From the NCBI GenBank assembly GCA_030446765.1, contig JAUJMR010000002.1:234743-298742 (forward strand): a DNA stretch of 64,000 nucleotides, written 5' to 3'. This DNA is from Chloroflexia bacterium (GTDB lineage Bacteria; Chloroflexota; Chloroflexia; Thermobaculales; Thermobaculaceae). The notes under the pieces are model-generated. The model saw only the letters and a program-made list of their open reading frames with translations. It ran no database searches and was not told where the DNA came from. Below, in pieces: positions 4,464 through 31,574 of the stretch (position 1 is its first letter; the number at the start of each line of letters is the position of its first letter). Both the position numbers and the translations under genes were made by a program.

Positions 4464-6583
4464 ATGGACAACGAAACCCTGTACGCGGTCATTATTTTCG
4501 GAAGCGGCATCATCGGCATCTTGTTCGCGCTCGGGATGGCTCGCTACGTCCTCAGCAAGGACACCGGCACCCCGGAGATGAAGGACATCGCCGATACGAT
4601 CTATGAAGGTGCGGTGGCCTACCTCAACCGTCAGTACATCACCATCGGCGCCATCGCCCTCGTTACCGCAATCGTGATCGGCGCGCTCATCAGCGCCGTT
4701 GGCCTCGGCGAAGATGTGGAGATCAGCGCGTTCGGCGCGGGCTGGCGTACCTCTCTTGCTTTCCTCGCAGGCGCGCTGGCGTCCGGTATCTCCGGCTACA
4801 TTGGAATGATCGTGGCGGTCCGGTCAAACATCCGCACCGCGGCAGCCGCGCGCCGCAGCCTTGGCGAGGCGCTCCTGGTGGCCCTCCGTGGCGGTGCGGT
4901 GTCCGGCTTCCTGATCGTCGCCCTCTCGATCATGGGGGTGGCGGGGATATTCTATCTTTACAATGGTGCGAACGACCCGGCGACGGCCTCGCGACTAATC
5001 GTCGGCTTCGGCTTCGGTGCGTCGTTCGTTGCGCTCTTCGCGCAGCTCGGCGGCGGCATCTACACGAAAGCAGCCGATGTTGGCGCGGACCTCGTTGGTA
5101 AGGTAGAGGCCGGCATCCCGAGGATGACCCGCGCAACGCGGCGGTAATTGCGGACCTCGTGGGCGATAACGTGGGCGACTGCGCGGGGCGTGGCGCCGAC
5201 CTCTTCGAGTCCACCGCGGCGGAGAACATCGGCGCGATGATCCTCGGCGCGGCGATTTTCACCGCGCTTCCTGCCGCGACCGGTGATCCTTCATACATCC
5301 TCTTCTCGCTGGTGATCGGCGCGATTGGTCTACTCGCCTCGATCGTCGGCATCCTGAGCGTTCGGCCGGGGGACAACCCGAACCCGCTCGCTGAAATGAA
5401 CCGCGGCTTTGCCGTGACCGCAATGTTGAGCGTCGTCGGCCTCGCCATCGGCGTTGCCTGGATGCTCGACGGGGAGTGGTGGCTGTTCCTGGCGGGGCTC
5501 GTTGGTATCGTCACCGCCATTATCTTCCTGATCATCACGCAGTACTACACGGCGACGAACTACCGGCCAGTCCGCAACATCGCGGAGTCCTCGCGTACCG
5601 GTCCCGCGACGAACATCATTACGGGTCTCTCGATTGGCTTGGAGAACACCGCAGCTCCGGCCATCGTGATCTCGCTCGCACTTGGGGCTGCGTACTACGC
5701 GGGTCAACAGGCGGCCCTCACCGGAGACGCATTTATCAATGGCGTCTATGGCACGGCGGTGGCAACGATGGGCATGCTGATGAGCGCAGGGTATGTGTTG
5801 GCGATGGACGTCTTCGGCCCCATTACCGACAACGCGGGCGGCGTCGTGGAGATGAGCAATCAATCCGAGGAAGTCCGGGCGCGTACCGACGTGTTGGATT
5901 CCGTGGGCAACACGACGAAGGCGCTCACAAAGGGATACGCCATCGGCTCTGCGGCACTCGCGGCGTTCTTGCTCTTCTCCGCATACCTTGCTGAAGCGAA
6001 CTTGCAGAGCGTGGACCTCTCGAAGATACATGTCTTCGTGGGTGGCTTCTTGGGGGCAATGCTGGTCTTCCTGTTCTCCTCGCTCGCCATCCGGGCGGTG
6101 GGCCGGGCAGCGGGCGATATGATCGAGGAGGTGCGGCGACAGTTCCGCTCTGATCCCGGCATCATGGCCGGTACGGTTCGCCCTGACTACGCGCGCGCGG
6201 TGGACATTAGCACCCGTGCGGCACTGCGCGAGATGATCCTCCCCGGCGCGCTCGCGGTCACCATGCCGGTTGTCGTAGGACTCGTGCTGCGTGCGGAGGC
6301 GGTCGCCGCCTTCCTGATCGTTGGCACGATGACGGGCATCCTGCTCGCACTGGTGATGAACAACGGCGGTGGCGCGTGGGACAACGCGAAGAAACTCATC
6401 GAGTCGGGCGAGATGTTGGACGGGGATGGGAAGGTGCTCGGCAAGGGCTCATACCCGCACGCAGCGGCCGTCGTGGGCGATACAGTCGGTGACCCCTTCA
6501 AGGACACCGCTGGCCCGTCGTTGCACGTGCTCATCAAGCTCCTCGCGACCGTCACGCTCGTGCTGGCTCCATTGTTCACCTAG
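4464..6583 (+). CDS. hppA: H+-translocating membrane pyrophosphatase, one-base frameshift
   Basis: Couples pyrophosphate hydrolysis to proton pumping across the membrane. Two track ORFs (4464-5147 and 5159-6583) are one gene of about 706 residues. Frame 1 ends after DVGADLVGKVEAGIP (the PPi-binding D-x7-K-x-E loop) and frame 2 resumes with DNVGDCAGRGADLFES. Adding one G at 5120/5121 restores the expected EDDPRN reading, so a GG run has lost one base. The motif GNTTKALTKGYAIG carries the K-x-x-T signature of K+-independent H+-PPases (established for this family) rather than A-x-x-G/A of K+-dependent ones. The SD GGAGAGG precedes ATG 4464, and a TAGAAT box lies at 4394-4399. The frameshift falls in the catalytic region, so it is either a sequencing error or a true null. 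Confidence 0.93.
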
Positions 6584-12754: not shown

Positions 12755-15700
12755 ATGACGACATATACCAGGCGCCCCGATCCCAGCCCGCTACCCACCA
12801 GTGCCGGGGAGGACGCGCAGCTCGTAGCGACTTACCTGCAGGCGCTACTGAAACAGACGCCGGCGACGGAGCTGCCACATATCTCGCTGCGGCTCGCACG
12901 GACGGACGCCGGCAATGTGCCCGGGATCGCCGTCGAGGATGCGGTAAATGCCGTGGGCAAGGTGGTCGTCCTTGGGAAAGCTGGCTCCGGAAAGACCACG
13001 ATGCTCTCGAGCGTGGTGTCCAGCGTTGCAGTACGGTCACTCGAGGCCCACTTCGGCCGACCCGACGGCGACCGATCCCTCTCCCTCGAAGACCAGCGTA
13101 TCCCGCTCTTCGTCGCGCTGGCCGATACGGAGGGACTGCACCTGCCCGAGCTTCTCCAGCGCTCGTTTACCAATGCAGGCGTGCGTGTGTCGGCGGCGTG
13201 CACCGAGCGCCTAGTCGAAGATTATCCCTTGCTCATCGCCTACGACGGTCTCGACGAAGTGCGCGCCGAGCGCCGACTTGAGGCTGCTGCGGAGATCGCC
13301 AGCACGGTGACCCGCGCAGGCTCACCGCATCGGTTCCTCGTAAGCTGCCGGGAAGATGAGTTTTCCCTCTACAGCGTCTGGTTCGATGAGTGCGAGACTC
13401 GTCACATCGAGCCCGTCACCCAGGAGCAGGCGCGCGAGTACCTGACCGCCACCGTGCAGCGCGCTGACTCCCAGTGGCGACTACGCGACGAGCGCGTTTG
13501 GGGCTTCGTTTCGACCGTCCGGGCGCTCGACTGCCTGCGCCAGGAACTCACTGACAACAAAGGCCCGGCTGGTTCGGCGGGCAAACTCCTGCTTGGCGTC
13601 GGCCGCAAGCTCCTTCTGCAGGCCGAGGCAAAGCGCCGAGCTCGCGGTGGAGACGCCGTACAGAGCCGCACCATGGTCCGCCTTCTCGCCGCGCTCGCGT
13701 TTTCGATGCGCGCTGAGGGCGTGGCGAAGATCTCTCGCGAACAGGCGTGTTCAGTGATCGCCGCTGCCTTGGGCGACGAGCTCACACCCGAGCCGCACCT
13801 GGAGTTGCTGCTCGACTCAGGGCTCATTGAAAGCACAGACGCGCGCCGCTGCCTGCAGTTCCTCGACACGGCAATAGAGGAAACCTTCAGCGCGTACGCG
13901 CTGCTCCTGCATGTCGAGTCCGGTGGCTCACTGAATGAGTACGTCGCCGCGGAGGCAGATCGAGAGCGCTGGAGCGCTCCACTGACCCTACTGTACGGTC
14001 TCCACCCCGACCGGGGTGCAATGCTCCGGGCCGTGATGGGCGATGGGCGAAATCCCGCGCTCGTCCGACTCGCCGTCCGCTGCCTCGTGGCGAACGAACC
14101 GGTGGACGAGTGGGGGCAAATTACTGCGCAGTCCGATCTGGACACGTCCGCGCATCTCTATCTGGGCACGGCGTTCGCGGAGCTCGGTCACCACGACCAG
14201 GCAATATTGGAGTTGGGGCGTGCGATTCAGGGCGGGCTAGACAGCGCAGAGGTGCACGCCCGGCTCGGTAGCCTGAATCAGACACGGGGCGATCACGCTG
14301 CCGCACGGTTAGAGTTCGAGCAGGCGCTCGAGCGAGAACCCGCGAATACGGCATACAAACGACACCTCGGTATGTGCCTCGCGCTTGACGGGCAGTACGA
14401 GCTGGCGATTGCTTGCTTGCGGGAGGTTATCGCCGATCTCAAGGGCGACTGTGCCCTCACCCAGCACGAGCTGGGTGGCATCTACAAACAGCAGGGACGC
14501 ACGACGGACGCGACGGCGGAGTTGCAGGAAGCCGCGGACCTGGTCCCAGGCAGTGCGCTTTACCGCACCAGCCTTGGTGCAGTCCTCGCGGCATCTGGCG
14601 ATCTCAATGCCGCAGCCACGCAACTCCACGCGGCCCTGGAGCATGACCCCGAGTTCGCGGCAGCACACAACGAGCTCGGTGCCGTGCTCGAGCAGCAGGG
14701 GCGCTTGGAAGAAGCACTCGTCCAGTACAGTCGGGCGGCAGACCTGCACCCCGGCGAACCGGTCTATCATCGCAACGCCGGTACGGTGCTGCGCATGCTC
14801 GGCCGGACGGCTGGTGCCGAGCGCGAGCTAACAACCGCGATCGAGCTGGATGCATCGTACGCCGACGCGTACAACGAACTCGGCATACTGATGCTCGAAA
14901 CCGGGCGTCCAGCCGCCGCGCTGGAAAACTTCCAGCGGGCGGTGGAACTCGTACCGGCGCAGGCCCAGTACCACCTGCGCACGGGCATCGCGTACCGCGC
15001 GCTCAAGCAGCCGGCGGAAGCGATCCGCGCGCTGGAGACTGCGGCATCGATCGAACCTACGGCGGACACGCACGGTGTACTCGCCGATGCGTACTCGGCG
15101 GACGGTCATCTGCTGGAGGCGGTACAACAGTACCGGTGGGCGGTCGAGCTCAGCGGCGGGCTGCCTTCGTACCTCGTGAACGCGGCTCAGGTACAACGCC
15201 GAGCCGGATTGCTCGCGGAGGCGGAAGCCTCGCTGCAACGCGCACTGGCCGCGGACTCGAGCCTGGCCGGGGCACACTTCGAACTGGGTGTATTGCTTGA
15301 GGACCAAGGGCGCATCCAGGATGCGTTCGCATCGTACGCCCGCGCATCGGAGCTCGCGCCGGATGTCACGGAGTATCTGGTGGCGCTGAGTCGCAGCGCA
15401 CGCATGGCCGGTGATACGGAACGCGCCAGGGCCGTGATCGACCGCGCTGTCGAACTTGCACCATCTTCGGGTGCCGTCTGGGATGAGATGGGCACTCTCG
15501 CACTTGAGCGCGGGGACACTTCGCTCGCTCTGCAGCACTCCCGCACAGCCGTGGCCCGAGAGCCGGAGAACGCTCGATACCGTACTCACCTCGCCCGTGC
15601 TCTCCGGCAAGGTGGAGCGATCAGCCAGGCGCTTGATTCGGCAACCGAGGCGGCGCGGCTTGATCCGCAGCTACCGGCCGCGCAGCACGAGTACGCACTC

Positions 15701-18700
15701 GCGCTCGCGGCGACCGGCGACCTTGATGCCGCCCTCGGCCGGTTGCGCACCGCCACACGCCTGGAGCCACAGGACCCCACATACGCGCTCGACCTGGGTC
15801 GCCACGCCCGGCTGCGAGGCAGGCTCAACGAGGCGCTCAACGCCCTGCACCGCGCGGTTGAGCTCGATCCACACTCCGGTCCCGCCCACATGGAACTCGG
15901 TCTGGCACTCGGCGACACCGGACGCTGGAACGAGGCGCTCGGACATCTGCGTTCAGCGCTACTCACGGATGACGGCGACGCGCAATATCGCCACCACTAC
16001 GGCGTGGCGTGCCTTCGGACCGGCAACGTTGAGGCAGCCGTGACAAACCTGCTCACGGCGGTCGAGCAGCAGCCCGCCAACGCCGGGGCACAGGCCGACC
16101 TCGCGGAGGCACTTGCAGCCGCGCAGCGACCCGGTGATGCGTTGACGGCACTGCGCGCCGCCTCCGCCTCGGAGCCCGAGAACCCTGCCTACCTGGTACG
16201 GCTTGCTACGCTGCTCAGAGAACAAGGCGAGTACCGAGCGGCTCAGGAGACGCTGGATCGGGCGCTGGAACTCAACCCCAATTCCGCAGCAGCGCGGAGC
16301 GAACTCGGCCTCGTGCTATCGGCCCAGGGACTCGACGAGCGGGGCCTGGCCCAGCAGATACGCGCCGTGAAAGTCGAGCCGGATAACGGTCTCTATCACT
16401 TCCGCCTCGGTGCGGCGTACCTGCGCCAACGCGCGCACGCCCAGGCGGTAGAGGAGCTCGAGCTTGCCCTCCGCATCGAGCCTGGCCATGCGGAATGGCA
16501 GCACGAGCTAGGCCGGGCACTGAGCGGCCTGGCCCGTCGTGAGGATGCCTTGCAGCCTATCTCAAAGCCGCGACCCTCGAGCCGAATGTCGGCCCGTACC
16601 ACCGCGATGCCGGCGTGACGTACAAGCTGCTCGGCCGCTATGATGAGGCATCGGAGCATCTGGAGGAGGCCGTACGGCTGCAGCCAAGCATCGCCTCCTG
16701 GCACAACGACCTCGGAATCTGCTACGAGCGCCGGGGCTGGCACGACGAGGCACTCCAGGAGTTCGAGGCCGCGATCGCGCTCGACGCCTCGCAACCGGTG
16801 TACATCTGCAACGCCGGCAACGTGCTGCGCCAGCAGGAACGGTATGAGAAGGCAATCGCGAGGCTCGAAGAGGCAAACGCTCTCAATCCCGAGTACGCGG
16901 AACCGTATCACCAGATGGCCATGACGCTCCAGGCGCTCGGCCGGCTGGACGAGGCCCTCGAGTACTACGAGCACGCCATTGCCCTCGCACCTGACACCGG
17001 CAAGTACCATTACAACCTCGGCCTGCTTCAGCAGCGCCGTGGGCGAATGGAGGAAGCGCTTGCGGCGGTGGAGACTGCGGTCCGGCTGCAGAACGAGGCG
17101 ATGTGGCACCATACGCTGGGAGTCATGCGGCGAGAGCACGGTCCGGCGATGGAGGCAGTACCGAGCCTGCGCCAGGCCCACAACCTTGAGCCGACGAACG
17201 CGACCTACATTCGAGACCTTGCACGGGCGCTGCGCGAGAGCGGCGACCTAGAAGGCGCGATGGCGTGCGCCCGCGAGGCTTTGAAGCTTGTCCCCGACGA
17301 CCCGCGCGCGATCGCGGAGCTGGCCTCAATACAGGAAGCGATGGGCGAGCTCACCGCCGCGCTCGCCTTGTACAAGCAAGCGTCGATGATCCAGCCATCG
17401 GAACCATCGTACCACCGCCAGGTCGGTACTGTCTCCCGACTACTTGATCGGCCAACGGACGCCGCCGCGTCCCTGGACCGCGCGCTAAAGCTTGCGCCCA
17501 ACGATCCACGCACCCTGTATGAGATGGGCCTGTTGCATGAGGCGCAGGGTCGATACGAGGAAGCATATAAGCTCCTCAAGCAGGCGGTGACCCAGTGCCC
17601 GCGCGAGGCGGCCTACCGATACGTGCTCGGCGTCACGATGCGCAAACTGCGAAGCCGCGAGAACCAGCTACGGCAGGCGCGGCTCCTCGCACAGTCGTCG
17701 CAGGTGTCGTATTCCGCTGCGGCTGCGGAGCTTGAGGAGGCGATCAGGATTGAACCGGGACACGCCGCGTGGCATAACGAGCTTGGTGAGACGTACGAAC
17801 TGGATGGGAGCCATGAGGAGGCGCTCAGACAGTTCAGGCAAGCAGCCGGGCTCGAATCTGACGTGCCTGTCTACCAATACAACCTGGGCCGCGCCCACAA
17901 GCGGCTGAGGGAGTACGACGACGCGGTACGGGCGCTGCAAACGGCGGTACGGCTCGACGGCGAGTATGCAGCCGCCTTCTCGGACCTCGGCACCACCTTC
18001 ACCACGCTCGGCCGAAACGCGGAAGCGCTCCTGAACCACGAGCGCGCCCTGCAGATCGACCCCAATAACCCGGAGTATCGCCGGCAGGCCGGCTCCGCAT
18101 ATCGCCAGACCCGGCGCTATCGCGACGCGCTCCAGGCACTCGCCCGCGCTGCCGAACTGGACCCGCAGAACCCGGAGACGTACAACGAGCTTGGACTCGT
18201 GTACCGCGCACAGGGCAAGCATCGCGAGGCACTCGCGGAGTTCGAGCACGCGCTGAAGCTCTCGCCGGAGCACGCGGGCTACAACCGAAACGCTGCCATC
18301 GCGTACCAGGACCTCAAGCAACCCCGCCAGGCGATCGAGAAGCTGCGCCGTGCGGTACTGCTCGAGCCAGCACGCGCGGGGTGGCATCACGAGCTCGGTG
18401 CACTGCTTGAGTCGCAGGGCGATCTGCCCCACGCGCTTGCAGAGTATCACGAGGCGGCGAACATAAATCCAGAAGGGGCCACCTACTACTACCGTGCCGC
18501 TGAGGTGTATGGGAAGTTGGGCCAGATCGAACAAGGAGTGGATGCGTTGCGGCGGGCGCTGTGGCTGGAGCCGCGCAACTACGAGTGGCGCTTCCGGCTC
18601 GGGCAACTCCACACGGAGGCCGGACAACCCGCGCTCGCGGCCGAGGAGTTCGCACGAGCGCTTGAGCTCGAGCCCGATGCCGCGGAGGCGCACCTGCAAC

Positions 18701-19476
18701 TCGGCCTCTCACTCGCCGCGCTGTCGCAGCCGGAACAGGCAGCAGAACGTCTCGCGGAGGCTGCCAAGCTCGAACCGGGCAACGTTGAGGTGCACAGCGC
18801 ACTGAGCGAGGTGCTGGAGACGTTGGGCCGTCCCGAAGAGGCGCTGAGTCACATCGTCCAGGCGCTCCTGTTGGACACCTCACTCGTCGGCTTGTACCGC
18901 AGCGCGGGTCGGCTTTATATGCAGCTCGGACGGTCCGAGGAGGCAGCGGCCGCCCTTGAACGCGCGGTCGAGCTGGAGCCCGGGGACGCTGCGACGCACT
19001 CAGACCTTGGTCTCGTGTACGAGGCACAGGAGAAGCTGAAGCTCGCGCTCGGGGAGCAGCGGGAAGCGGTGCGCATCGAGCCGACCACGGCGCTGTACGA
19101 GATGCGTGCCGGATCGTTGTGCCGGCAACTGCGCTGGTTCGACGAGGCGCGAGCAGCCCTCACTCGTGCGCTGGAGATGAGCCCGGAGGATCCACGAACA
19201 TACAATGAGATGGGACAGCTGTTCGAGGCGGTTGGGCGCCCCGAAGAAGCACGCGAGCAATACGAGGTCGCTGTGCGGCTCGCCCCGAATGAGGCCGAGT
19301 ATCACCGCAACCTGGGCGTCGTTTACAAGCGCCTCAAGCGCTACGATCTGGCCGCAAACGAGCTGCGCTACGCGGTCAAGCTCAAGCCTGGCTACGCCGA
19401 GGCGTACAAGGAACTCACGACGGTCAGCACACTCTCGTTCATCACGCGTGGCTTTACCAGGGAGCGAGCATCATAA
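12755..19476 (+). CDS. Giant NACHT-type STAND ATPase with about 51 TPRs, one-base frameshift
   Basis: Track ORFs 12755-16618 and 16615-19476 are one gene of about 2240 residues. The N-terminal 65 residues match nothing I know. A P-loop VVVLGKAGSGKTTML follows at about residues 70-84, and LLIAYDGLDEV at about 158-168 is a NACHT-style Walker B (hydrophobics, D-G-L-D-E). A helical segment of about 290 residues follows, then TPRs from about residue 460 to the end. I count about 24 before and 27 after the frameshift. The repeats alternate between an ELG-type start (HNELG, WHNDLG) and a Tyr-type start (YHRNAG, YRRQAG), giving a 68-residue unit. Inserting one C in GCCTTG near 16548-16550 turns the odd tail of ORF1 into DALAAYLKAATLEPN and joins ORF2 in register. 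STAND proteins usually sense a ligand through such repeats and oligomerise; no effector domain is visible here. A terminator lies upstream and SD GGGAGG precedes ATG 12755. Confidence 0.85.
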
Positions 19477-19617: not shown

Positions 19618-20214
19618 ATGATCTTCTCGGACACGATGATTATCGAGGCCATACAGACTGGCCTCGTCCAGTTCGATCCCCCCTTGGATATCCCGGTTCA
19701 AGTCCAGCCTGCCTCCATCGACCTGCGGCTTGGCGACACCTACCGAGTGTACAACTACGCGCAGCACCACCTGATCGACCCATCCGCAGACGTGGACCTC
19801 GATGAGATCAGCGAGCTGGTGCACCAGGACGGCAAGCCGTTCATCCTGCACCCCGGCGCCTTCGTGCTGGGCTCGACGCTGGAGTACGTCCGCATCCCGA
19901 ATAGCCTGGTGGGACGTCTGGAGGGCCGGAGCAGTATCGGACGGCTCGGCGTTATCGTCCACTCAACCGCCGGCTTCATCGACTGTGGTTTCCAGGGAAA
20001 CATCACGCTGGAGATCAGCAACATCGGGAAGATCCCGGTGGCACTCCGAACCGGGATGCGCGTCTGCCAACTCACCCTGATGGAAACGGGTCCCGTCGCC
20101 CGGCCATACGGCCCGCTGCGCGGGAGCAAGTACCAGGGCCAGCGAGAGCCGACGCCGAGCCGCCTCCGCAAGGATGCCGAGTTCGCGCCATCGGTGGAGA
20201 CGCTACTACGGTAG
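19618..20214 (+). CDS. dcd: dCTP deaminase
   Basis: Deaminates dCTP to dUTP (and possibly onward to dUMP in bifunctional forms), feeding dTMP synthesis. The 198-residue protein has the trimeric dUTPase/Dcd fold. QPASIDLRLGD near residue 30 and EGRSSIGRLGVIVHSTAGFID near 100-120 hold the active-site Ser-Arg and Glu positions of the family, and the C-terminus carries the nucleotide-binding YQGQREPTPSR. It is of typical length. GGAGG at 19603-19607 lies 10 bases before ATG 19618. It stands alone between the TPR giant and a secreted protein. Confidence 0.93.
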   Translation: MIFSDTMIIEAIQTGLVQFDPPLDIPVQVQPASIDLRLGDTYRVYNYAQHHLIDPSADVDLDEISELVHQDGKPFILHPGAFVLGSTLEYVRIPNSLVGRLEGRSSIGRLGVIVHSTAGFIDCGFQGNITLEISNIGKIPVALRTGMRVCQLTLMETGPVARPYGPLRGSKYQGQREPTPSRLRKDAEFAPSVETLLR

Positions 20215-20569: not shown

Positions 20570-23401
20570 TTGCTACGTAAGGCCAGCATCGCTCGAACAC
20601 CTCTGACTATCGCCATGGTTGCCCTGCTGTTGATAGCGGCCGCACTAGCTGCGCTTGCCGCGTTTCAGGCAAACAGTGACGGACCGAAGATCGCCAAGCC
20701 CCCTGCCAATACCCCGGTTGCGGGAGAGACACCCACAGTACAGCCGTCGCTACCGGTTGCCTCAAGCGATGGGCTTAAATTAGCACTCAACGAGGACGGG
20801 AGTATCGCGGAAATCAGCGATGGCGAGCGCACGCTACCGAAACTCGATACTCCAGGGGGCTTCTCAATGCGCCTCGTGGGCGAGGAGCCAAACCTGGCGC
20901 CGAATCCGAGCTTGGAGATTGATGTCGACGGTGACGGTACGCCGGACGGCTGGCGCTTTACGAAGGGCGCGGCCCGGCCACAACTCGTCAACTCAAAGGC
21001 GCACTCGGGCAAGCGCTCCATCACCGTATCGAACAAAAGGGTCGCTACGTCGGGGACGTTCAGCACCGAGATAGCGGTGAAGCCATATCGCAATTACATT
21101 GCTTCGGCCTGGTTTCGTAGCGAGAATGTATTACCGACCAGCGCGTGGTTTGGCAACCCACCGGTTAGAATACCGGACGGTTCTCCGGCGCAGATCAAGG
21201 TCGAAGAGTTGACGCGCGGTGGCGAGGTGATCAGTACCTACTACGCCTTTGGCTATACAAACACGGCTGGTTGGAACCGTCAGGCTGTCGGCTTTAAGAC
21301 CCTTGGCAAGACACGAAAGCTACGCGTCACCGGGTTGCTGTATAAAGGCTCAGGAAGGGTATGGTTCGACGACCTGTACGTCGGTCAGCTGATCTCCGAC
21401 ACCGTGCGGCCTCTCACGAGCGAGACCACCGCCGGCGCCGACGGGAAGCTGCACCAGCACGCCGACCTTCCTGAGGAGCATCTCACGTTCGACGCAACCT
21501 ACACCCCCACCAAAGACTACATCCGCGTCGATGCAGAGGTGACGGACACGGCGAAACAAGACGCCCTGGCCACTGACAAGGCGTTCCAGATCACCTACGC
21601 CCTCCCCGTGAACGCGGTAGGATGGATGTGGGACGATCACCCTCGAAAGTCACGCGAAATCACACCGAAGGTTCCCTTCAAACTCAACTCCGTCCAGGTC
21701 CCGGATCCCTCCAGATACCCGTTCGCGACTATCCACGACGACAAGTCAGCCCTGACGATCGCAATGCCGCTCAACACGCCCCGGTTCGCCACGACAAAGT
21801 ACGACAGCCGTCGGGGACTTACCATGACCTTCGACCTCGGGGTCTCCAAGGCCGCGAAGAAGCTGAAGGGAAAGGCAACCTTCACGTTCCTGTTGTACAA
21901 ATCGGATCCGGCATGGGGTATACGGGCGGCCACGAAGAAGTACTACGATATCCATCCACAGTCATTCGTCCGCCGGACCGATCCAAGACGGGAAGGCTTC
22001 TGGTTCGTCCGGCCACCTCTTGAGGCACTGGACAATCCGAAAACACCGAAGGACGAGTCGACGGCTTACGGGCTTGGCTTGAATATGGTGAGCCTGGGTA
22101 CGGATAGCACCATCGTGCACAAGGTTTGGGGCGGCGACTACCTGAAGTGGGACAACCGGCGGAACATCTACACGTCGACCTACAATCACCATTCGGGGTT
22201 CTTCGCCCCGCGATGCGCGCCTGGTCAGCGTGGGTGTGAGAAGCTGACCTACGAGCAGTCACTCCAGAAGCTCCGCGCGGATGCCGCGAAGTCAACGGCG
22301 AACGGAAAGAACGACCGGCTGCGGGATGAGTCGCAGGCGACGTTGATCTCCGCATCGCGCGATATAAACGGGCGGCTGCGGTACACGAACTACCAGAACA
22401 AGTTCGGAGCATTCAATAAGTACTACCAAAACCCCGACCCCGACTTGTCCGACGGCATGGACTGGTCGGCGGCGGCCCAGAAGCACCAGATGGAGTATGC
22501 GATACAACTGGCCCGTGAAGCCGGTGCGAAGCTGGAGGCGATTCACTTCGACTCGACTTCCGGTCATCGCCGTTGGGGCGAGGATTACAGCCGGGAGCAC
22601 TGGGCCACGGCGGACGTACCGTTGACCTTCAGCTATGAGTCGGGCGAAGTAACCGAGAAGCTGATATTCGCGATGTATGAGCATCTGGAGAAAATGGCCG
22701 ACTTCCTGCACGACCGCGACATGCTCCTCACCGCCAACTTCAACGGCAACGAGGTCAACGCCCTCAACTACCTGGGCGCGGACCTGATCGACTACTACGG
22801 GGTGGAACAAGGTCTCGAGCAGCGAGTCGGAGCTGTATGGGGTGTGACCGCCGATAGCTTCGCCCTGAATAAACGCGTCATGGCATACCAGAAGCCCATC
22901 AGCACCCTCGACACCGAGATCGGCAATGGTAAGTTCAGCCTGGCGCAGATGGAGGCGAAGATACAGCGCAGCCTCTTCTACGGCATCTTCCCTGGTGCTC
23001 GCGGGCAAATTACGAAGACCAAAGGTTGGTGGTCGGATCAGGGGCTCAGAAAGGTCTACGCCCGATACAGCCCGTTGCTCGAGGAACTGGCGGTCGCCGG
23101 CTGGGAGCCGGTCACGAACGCCCGTTCGTCCAATCCGGACGTATGGCTAGAGCGGTTCGGGTACGCATCGCAGAACACGTTGCACCTGACCATTCGCAAC
23201 GACACCGAGTCGAACCACGGCTACACGCTCACGGTCGATCTCGACAAGGATGGACTGAAATCTGTGCGAAACCTGACGGCCCGGGAAATGATCATGGACG
23301 AGTCCGTGGATGTTGAGTTGAACTCGGACGGCACCCAAGCCACGCTTTCCGGGACGATACCCGCAGGTTCTACCCGTATGGTCCGCTTCGACACACGTTA
23401 G
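20570..23401 (+). CDS. Large secreted or membrane-anchored protein, possible glycoside hydrolase
   Basis: A 943-residue protein with an N-terminal signal or anchor (TIAMVALLLIAAALAALAAF), then a Pro/Thr linker. NLAPNPSLEIDVDGDGTPDGW at about residues 110-130 is the opening of a carbohydrate-binding beta-sandwich (CBM4/9-like), ending near GRVWFDDLYVG at about 270. The middle and C-terminal part has aromatic and acidic stretches that look like a TIM-barrel hydrolase: IHFDSTSGHRRWGEDY, LLTANFNGNEVNAL, ADLIDYYGVEQG. I cannot assign a family or catalytic pair. The last 90 residues look like a C-terminal beta domain. The start is TTG 20570 with GGGAG 5 bases upstream. It probably acts on an extracellular polysaccharide, but this is inference from architecture. 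Confidence 0.6.
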   Translation: MLRKASIARTPLTIAMVALLLIAAALAALAAFQANSDGPKIAKPPANTPVAGETPTVQPSLPVASSDGLKLALNEDGSIAEISDGERTLPKLDTPGGFSMRLVGEEPNLAPNPSLEIDVDGDGTPDGWRFTKGAARPQLVNSKAHSGKRSITVSNKRVATSGTFSTEIAVKPYRNYIASAWFRSENVLPTSAWFGNPPVRIPDGSPAQIKVEELTRGGEVISTYYAFGYTNTAGWNRQAVGFKTLGKTRKLRVTGLLYKGSGRVWFDDLYVGQLISDTVRPLTSETTAGADGKLHQHADLPEEHLTFDATYTPTKDYIRVDAEVTDTAKQDALATDKAFQITYALPVNAVGWMWDDHPRKSREITPKVPFKLNSVQVPDPSRYPFATIHDDKSALTIAMPLNTPRFATTKYDSRRGLTMTFDLGVSKAAKKLKGKATFTFLLYKSDPAWGIRAATKKYYDIHPQSFVRRTDPRREGFWFVRPPLEALDNPKTPKDESTAYGLGLNMVSLGTDSTIVHKVWGGDYLKWDNRRNIYTSTYNHHSGFFAPRCAPGQRGCEKLTYEQSLQKLRADAAKSTANGKNDRLRDESQATLISASRDINGRLRYTNYQNKFGAFNKYYQNPDPDLSDGMDWSAAAQKHQMEYAIQLAREAGAKLEAIHFDSTSGHRRWGEDYSREHWATADVPLTFSYESGEVTEKLIFAMYEHLEKMADFLHDRDMLLTANFNGNEVNALNYLGADLIDYYGVEQGLEQRVGAVWGVTADSFALNKRVMAYQKPISTLDTEIGNGKFSLAQMEAKIQRSLFYGIFPGARGQITKTKGWWSDQGLRKVYARYSPLLEELAVAGWEPVTNARSSNPDVWLERFGYASQNTLHLTIRNDTESNHGYTLTVDLDKDGLKSVRNLTAREMIMDESVDVELNSDGTQATLSGTIPAGSTRMVRFDTR

Positions 23402-29903: not shown

Positions 29904-31574
29904 GTGGGAGAGGTCGTGACCACCGCACCGACACCGGGAAGAATCGTCGACAGGCTGCGCGCGAATCTGCGCGCCGCGGGAATTCCGTTCACTGACGCCG
30001 ACATCGAGGGCATCGTCGAGACGGGCTTCCTGCAGGGCGTTATGGAGTTCGAAAGCCTTGCGAGCGATATCTATCTTGCTGGCGCGCCAGACTACCTCGA
30101 CGCGTGGGGAGATGGCGTCGAGCCCGATCTCCCCGGCGCGAATCTCGTTGCCTTCCCGCACTCATCGGACGGCGCCACAGAACTAGATCGCGCCTCGATC
30201 AGGAAAATCGGCAGATTGCTTGAGCGGCGCGACATCTCGCCGATTGAGCTAACGCGTACCGCGCTGGATCGCATCAGGGAGCGAAATCGCACGCTGAACG
30301 CATTTCAGTGTGTGGTTGAGAAGGAAGCCCTCGCGGCGGCACAGGTAGCGGAACGGGAGATCGCGGAAGGTGATTACCGCGGCGGGCTCCACGGCGTACC
30401 GGTCGCGGTGAAGGACCTGTTCGACCTGGCCGGCACGCCGACGACCGCCGGCTCCGCAGCGTCCGCCTCCGGCGTGGCACGTCACGATTCCGCGGCAGTG
30501 GACCGGTTGCGGCGGTCCGGCGCCATCATTGTCGGAAAAACCACGCTCGCCGAGTTCGCATACTCCCCGGCTCGAATAACGCCCATTATGGACCGACAAG
30601 GAACCCCTGGAACCTCGCGCACGACACCGGTGGTTCCAGTAGCGGCTCCGGTGCGGCCGTGGCGGCGGGCCTTGTCTACGCCGCGCTCGGCTCGGACACC
30701 GGTGGCAGTATCCGCATACCTGCCGCGCAGTGCGGCATCGTGGGCTTGAAGCCGACCTACGGCAGACTCAGCATGCACGGCGTGGCGCCGTCTCGCTTGG
30801 TCACTCGATCATATCGGCCCGATGACTCGCAGCGTACCGGACGCAGCGTTGTTGCTGGAAGTTCTCGCTGGTCATGATCCTCGCGACCCACGCACACGCG
30901 TTGGGACGGCGTACCGAGTGTCGGCCGAGTTGGAGGCGGGCGCTCGCGGTGTTCGCATCGGCGTGGTACGCAACGATGGGGCTGATACGACCCCAGGCAC
31001 CGCTGAAGGACTCGCGGCTTGGCATGGAGGCATCGAGGCGCTGGAGCGTCAGGGGGCAGAAATCACGGAGTTTGACCTGCCGGAGTTGTCCGCGATGCGT
31101 ATCGTCAATAGCGCAATCCTCGCGCTGGAGGCGGCGGCGTACCACGAGAAGCGCTTGTGCGAGCATTTGCACCAGATCGGCGTCTTTGCGCGTCACCGCC
31201 TGCTGTCTGCCTACGCTCATGCTCCCGGCACGTTCATCCGGGCTCAGCAGGTACGGGCGGTGCTGCGGCGACGATTGCAGGACGCCACCGGGGACGGGGA
31301 AATCCTGTGCACGCCCACCATGCCCGCCTCGGCACCGCTGCTTGGCACCCCGTCCAGTACTCGCTACACGGCACCGTTCAACGCGCTCGGCTGGCCGGCG
31401 GTAACGGTGCCCGTTGGCCTCGCACCGGGGAATCTACCGATCGGCCTGCACCTCATCGGGCCGCCCTGGGCGGAGGCACGGTTGCTCCAGATAGCACGCG
31501 TCGTGGAACTCGAAGGACCATGGCGTCACACCAAGCAGATCGATCCGGCGCGTCCGGATACATCCGACGCATGA
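29904..31574 (+). CDS. Amidase (amidase signature family), two frameshifts
   Basis: About 556 residues when read across two single-base errors. Frame 1 gives [21 protein letters not shown] with the catalytic Lys; after 30574 one base is missing, and the next frame gives the Gly-Ser-rich motif [14 protein letters not shown] and [15 protein letters not shown], supplying the cis-Ser and nucleophile Ser. An extra T at 30791 then moves the frame to [21 protein letters not shown] and on to the stop. All three catalytic residues are present, so the ancestral gene was functional. The N-terminal 90 residues precede the signature domain, as in allophanate hydrolase-like or Asp/Glu-tRNA amidotransferase A relatives. 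The substrate is unknown. Start GTG 29904 or 29916. The stop overlaps the next gene (ATGA). Confidence 0.82.

Follow-up and report, generated by a model that had tools for sequence, protein, structure and literature searches.

The window considered here, a 64,000-nucleotide stretch of DNA from a Chloroflexia bacterium, holds at 12755–19476 on its forward strand the coding sequence of a giant protein in which an apparent NACHT-type ATPase is followed by some 51 TPRs, and the question that it raises is what a protein of this build does for its cell. Parts such as STAND proteins and clan-CD cysteine proteases are commonly assigned to immunity or cell death, and an earlier reading of the bare DNA (hereafter the original prediction) related the giant to STAND/NACHT proteins of bacterial immunity (Avs/bNACHT-like) and signaling. 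The parts of the giant gene and the dcd gene beside it lie on the forward strand.

A Frame Break within a Conserved Gene

As sequenced, the region comprises two open reading frames: 12755–16618 (1287 aa), which encodes the N-terminal helix and linker, the NACHT ATPase, the STAND helical region, and about half of the TPR array, its last ~20 residues being out of frame; and 16615–19476 (953 aa, with a GTG start), which encodes the remainder of the array and the C-terminal tail. The original prediction had taken the region as one uninterrupted gene and overlooked the frame break at 16548–16549, which rules out a single-ORF reading. At this point the window is one base short relative to the sister genome G001 (same genus, 95% identical): the DNA alignment of the two has a one-base gap beside 16548 and is otherwise gapless, and G001 carries an unbroken frame of 2252 residues at the same gene. 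Between window and G001, dN/dS over the whole gene is 0.13; the TPRs ahead of the break give 0.14 and the part behind it 0.10, the last value indicating that purifying selection still acts on the downstream half. The window's hppA also looks split by an apparent frame slip (4464–5147 and 5159–6583), and in a relative (L030) the same gene is a single frame of 704 aa.

The frame break would by itself suggest that the gene is decaying or split in the window's lineage, into two separate proteins or a pseudogene, but we regard this as very improbable, given the open frame in the sister genome, the low dN/dS past the break, and the apparent splitting of further genes in the same assembly. Taken together, these points make an assembly indel the simplest reading and the probable one, with a very recent mutation as a further conceivable cause, and we therefore treat the product as what is probably one protein of about 2,240 residues. 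An amidase in the window is likewise divided over two open reading frames (29904–30749 and 30822–31574), probably through another assembly indel.

Domain Architecture

The N-terminal ~66 residues (12755–12952) contain one conserved helix with the motif YLxAL, and neither family profiles nor the AF2 model revealed an effector domain in this segment ahead of NACHT, so the short N-terminus without a normal effector that had been proposed is borne out. The NACHT domain itself occupies residues 70–231 (12962–13447), with the P-loop GKAGSGKT at residues 74–81 (12974–12997) and the D-G-L-D-E motif at residues 164–168, within the Walker B region (window positions 13229–13258). When residues 1–460 were scanned, the Pfam NACHT model PF05729 scored 28.1 bits against a cut-off of 26.7, and over the whole first ORF it scored 25.3 bits, slightly under that cut-off; all 12 aligned orthologs matched the model at E ≤ 0.01, the best with an E value of 1.6e-12. 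The AF2 model of residues 1–460 (pLDDT 85) resembles NOD2 (E 5e-10) and NLRC4 (E 1e-9) in Foldseek over ~490 columns, as well as NLRP proteins, with TM-scores that are modest at about 0.3–0.56 depending on the query. By profile score and predicted fold, the window's ATPase is thus a genuine NACHT/STAND domain, as the original prediction had deduced from its P-loop and Walker B. Both alignments keep Lys80 of the P-loop and Asp164 without exception, and Arg199 with few exceptions if any. At the second acidic position of Walker B, several lineages carry another residue (DGLEQ, DALND, DSLDLL), which suggests that nucleotide binding counts more than hydrolysis in those lineages. Between NACHT and the TPRs lies a helical region (13448–14119) that appears STAND-like from its position and the AF2 model. 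Hydropathy shows no hydrophobic stretch of transmembrane-like value in the window's protein.

The TPR array (14141–19392) spans the frame break, and TPR models of Pfam match both ORF halves with E values down to 1e-71 and 1e-117. Repeat spacing gives ~51–52 TPRs across residues 463–2213, in agreement with the number first counted. Autocorrelation of the region peaks at a lag of 68 residues (26.5% identity), above the lag of 34 (21.6%) and a background of 8.5%, and even multiples of 34 mostly outscore odd multiples in both halves; the two-TPR super-repeat of 68 residues noticed at the outset is thereby upheld. Members of the window's family and G009 show the period clearly, and Roseiflexaceae-type and other orthologs show it weakly or not at all, so that the super-repeat, judged by this signal, is real but lineage-dependent. 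The array is followed by a C-terminal tail (AYKELTTVSTLSFITRGF..., 19393–19473) that is conserved in the family and recognizable in G009.

Inheritance and Length Conservation

The giant is present as a single copy in all seven genomes of the window's family, and no paralog with a close NACHT head was found in the same genome. Full-length orthologs, which occur in five families of the class and at six Anaerolineae-type loci, mostly measure 2,150–2,340 residues, two of them reaching ~2,410 residues as stop-to-stop frames, and this length stays nearly fixed while identity drops to 18–30%. In the tree of NACHT domains, families f1, f3, f10, and f11 are each monophyletic, which fits vertical descent. 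A viral origin was rejected: a single scan of viral contigs with six peptide patterns returned no relative.

The repeats themselves also keep their register over part of this range: an in-register alignment of the window's array beats every rotation against G005, G009, G047, and G045, with a margin over the one-repeat rotation that is narrow, as expected; for G043 it is about level with the rotated alignment, and for G008 it brings no gain. Many Anaerolineae giants are shorter (1,700–1,900 residues) and have TPRs, while their N-terminus lacks both NACHT and P-loop, which marks NACHT as an optional head. Against these NACHT-less giants the in-register alignment of the window's array is no better than a rotated one, and the orthology of their arrays rests on gene position; they may be related to the window's protein by position and repeat type alone. 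The original prediction had named relatives with the ATPase and the TPRs on separate genes as a finding that would count against it; no such arrangement was seen, although many Anaerolineae relatives are without the ATPase altogether.

Gene Partners in Relatives

In relatives, the giant is the middle gene of a trio that consists of a two-TM protein of ~110 aa, the giant, and a cysteine protease with TPRs and a C25 (gingipain-fold) domain; family membership, array register, and the NACHT tree make the window's giant orthologous to this middle gene. A conserved neighborhood of this kind agrees with the suggestion that the giant acts with a partner in trans, inasmuch as partner genes do adjoin it in relatives. 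The two-TM protein (~105–130 residues with a charged loop, its assignment supported by hydropathy) was found in 24 genomes of the class, all outside the window's family, and its gene lies directly upstream of the giant in the fetched loci. The TPR plus C25-like protein (~800–1,200 residues) is encoded directly or closely downstream of the giant in nearly all complete loci, and in G009 its gene sits on a different contig. Searching public genomes with a profile of the protease gave 80 loci, with the same gene order across Anaerolineae and Chloroflexia; the named loci with relatives include two of Roseiflexus sp. (L146 and L147). Among 121 evenly drawn genomes, C25 was found in five at E ≤ 1e-30, and the module is not phylum-wide. 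We found no description of this two-TM–giant–C25 module in the literature searched.

Pfam recognizes C25 in 41 of 62 protease members, with a best E value of 4e-18, and the catalytic residues are conserved almost throughout (the His is present in 78 of 78 aligned sequences and the Cys in 76 of 77). Against the PDB, the full-length protease profile yields TPRs alone among the matches listed and the profile of the protease domain a weak gingipain match; the C25 identity is settled by fold search, in which the AF2 model of the domain (pLDDT 90) finds the gingipains RgpB and Kgp as its best PDB matches (E 1e-13) and also returns, less well, CHAT/Craspase and separase. The protease sequences that were read have no evident signal peptide, and the protein is probably cytoplasmic. 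The hits in WOR-3, Acidobacteria, Altarchaeum, and Nostoc that the protease profile brought up are C25 domains standing by themselves; such proteins of ~310–385 aa (L211, L212, L214, L216, L218, L219, and L223) were seen in these groups and in further bacterial records.

Division Genes and Other Neighbors

Genes for ftsZ, mraZ, rsmH, or ftsI-like proteins lie within the fetched stretch, and always on the module's strand, at 30 of 73 Chloroflexota protease loci, a count in which the loci are not phylogenetically independent and two of the 30 (L157 and L159) rest on weak ftsI-like matches. FtsZ, MraZ, RsmH, and FtsI were each identified by Pfam on one representative, and murF from sequence and position only. 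Several arrangements recur: in Roseiflexaceae the order is mraZ, rsmH, x, two-TM, giant, C25, a short gene that is ftsL-like by position, ftsI, and murF; elsewhere the trio is followed by mraZ and ftsZ, or by a gene of no assigned family and ftsZ, or is preceded by ftsZ and x. Because a dcw locus takes up a few tens of kilobases in a genome of 3–6 Mb, chance adjacency can be put, by reasoning, at a few percent. At more than half of the module loci, the fetched stretch contains no dcw gene. At ~15 Anaerolineaceae loci (e.g., L164:542-3767), a PAS histidine kinase and a sigma-54 regulator stand directly upstream of the trio instead, and some have alaS downstream. Two families without Pfam matches were seen in these neighborhoods: one of ~440 aa, which in Anaerolineae frequently separates the C25 gene from ftsZ (L174:308-1621, L208:11408-12754, L190:11499-12743; one member scanned), and one of multi-TM proteins upstream of the two-TM gene in Roseiflexaceae (L033:12857-14311, L128:3063-4607).

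The window's own locus is not within a dcw cluster. In its family the giant lies between oligopeptide-transport genes (an oxidoreductase gene in G005) and dcd, with secDF, hppA, opp transport genes, and dcd among the neighbors; the dcd gene, which encodes a dCTP deaminase-like protein (19618–20214 in the window), adjoins the giant in the four family relatives whose contig covers that side, and two family members have alaS at a distance of a few kilobases from the giant. Both the two-TM gene and the C25 protease gene are absent from the family, including G005, whose genome is 99% complete in two contigs, and a replacement protease in the family was rejected, the search for one having given just a weak C25-like match in G000 (E 1.2e-4) and a C14 peptidase in G006 only. 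With dcw genes and both partners missing, a division role can be extended to this family by homology only, and the giant must act there either by itself or together with different partners. Next to dcd, the window also encodes a 943-aa protein (20570–23401) with a weak CBM_4_9 match, which is kept beside dcd in G001.

Possible Function of the Giant Protein

The reading that we favor, while judging its chance to be a little short of even, is that the giant is the scaffold of a division- or envelope-linked proteolytic module of Chloroflexota: a gene that is single copy, descends vertically, hardly varies in length, and in relatives is linked to dcw genes points to a housekeeping scaffold rather than to a variable immune sensor. 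The analysis itself establishes the NACHT and C25 folds, from profiles and structure prediction, together with the catalytic residues, the order and joint presence of the genes, their linkage to dcw genes in relatives, and the constraint on length and sequence; the mechanism that we infer comprises tethering, complex formation, control of the protease, and a role in division. The giant would be a cytoplasmic STAND protein with a nucleotide-binding NACHT head on a superhelix of ~51 TPRs of nearly fixed length; the two-TM protein would tether this solenoid to the membrane, the superhelix would bind peptides of its clients as well as the protease, the latter through its TPR part, and nucleotide binding by NACHT, where present, would switch the state of the assembly. 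The assembly might then retain the protease, or let it go, where the cell divides or its wall grows, so that the cleavage of selected clients keeps pace with septation. The fullest version of this scheme, which we consider rather unlikely, is a division-site machine of Chloroflexota not described before, in which a giant fixed-length TPR superhelix with an optional, nucleotide-switched STAND head hands its clients over, at the septal membrane, to a protease of gingipain fold; it would give a member of the caspase/separase clan of proteases a part in bacterial cell division. If the link to division is real, Chloroflexota division would have a new lineage-specific component, apoptosis-type parts would be found in a housekeeping role, and the nearly fixed size of the TPR array would have a testable reason. 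One conceivable reason, a speculative one, is that the array acts as a ruler whose length some dimension of the cell dictates.

Two other readings have to be weighed against this one. The giant could be a more general cytoplasmic or membrane-linked assembly scaffold, chaperone-like and serving, for instance, envelope proteins or secretion, with the protease in quality control and the division genes adjacent merely because envelope genes cluster. TPR superhelices are established as generic peptide-binding scaffolds, and such a role would suit the secDF, hppA, opp, and dcd neighbors in the window's family, where the protease is not needed; what speaks against it is that ftsZ and mraZ recur beside the module in several arrangements and, without exception, on its strand, and on balance we hold it to be unlikely. 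The other reading stays closer to the original prediction: an immune or regulated-death system in which the NACHT-TPR protein senses phage or stress, oligomerizes like an inflammasome or apoptosome, and activates C25, which kills or stalls the cell. What keeps such a role in consideration is the partner, a cysteine protease of clan CD with CHAT/Craspase proteins among its fold-search matches, together with the closeness of the NACHT fold to NLR proteins and the combinations of STAND with caspase-type peptidases in multicellular prokaryotes including Chloroflexi (PMC7159879, PMC8195603). Yet the giant is single copy, vertically inherited, and nearly constant in length, many relatives have it in a dcw neighborhood, many trios are without NACHT altogether, the window's family has no C25 partner, and several lineages have not kept the second acid of Walker B. 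PADLOC models of known defense ATPases gave weak P-loop or TPR matches, none of them convincing, and in NCBIfam EruA reached 26 bits, far below its cut-off of 1000, so that membership in a known defense family was rejected; nor was a defense-island context or patchy distribution seen, the neighbors being opp and dcd genes and the copy number one throughout the family. The immune framing was accordingly given up as the leading explanation, and we now see it as quite unlikely.

Relation to Known Systems

With the NACHT-clade STAND NTPases (NOD2, NLRC4, NLRP, and bacterial NACHT proteins), the giant has in common the NACHT domain, the P-loop, D-G-L-D-E, the helical region, and C-terminal superstructure-forming repeats. 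It differs from them in that the place of a short or variable sensor is taken by ~51 TPRs, a number that hardly changes, in lacking an N-terminal effector, and in that NACHT is dispensable at the level of the module and the second Walker B acid is lost in some lineages. The relatives' partner protease has the fold and the conserved His/Cys pair of peptidase family C25 (gingipains RgpB and Kgp), whereas it carries an N-terminal TPR part, has no evident signal peptide, and is absent from the window's family.

Kaur et al. (PMC7159879) described STAND/caspase multigene conflict systems, including a membrane-associated EACC1-caspase pair, and these resemble the module in theme: in multicellular lineages, a small membrane protein and a peptidase of the caspase superfamily occur alongside STAND/TPR proteins that form superstructures. 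The module differs from them in gene order, dcw linkage, and vertical conservation, and no MoxR/vWA or effector diversification was seen in it; set against the published description in PMC7159879, its families look different. The related conflict systems of PMC8195603, likewise compared from the published text, share the theme as well. TPR-CHAT (Craspase) and separase also combine an alpha-solenoid with a clan-CD protease fold and offer an analogy for a possible mode of action, a likeness at the level of fold only; the module has no CRISPR or cohesin component, and its solenoid lies mainly on a separate, far larger protein. A 1746-residue open frame with a Peptidase_C14 domain was also observed at L231, in the Roseiflexus-type genome G047.
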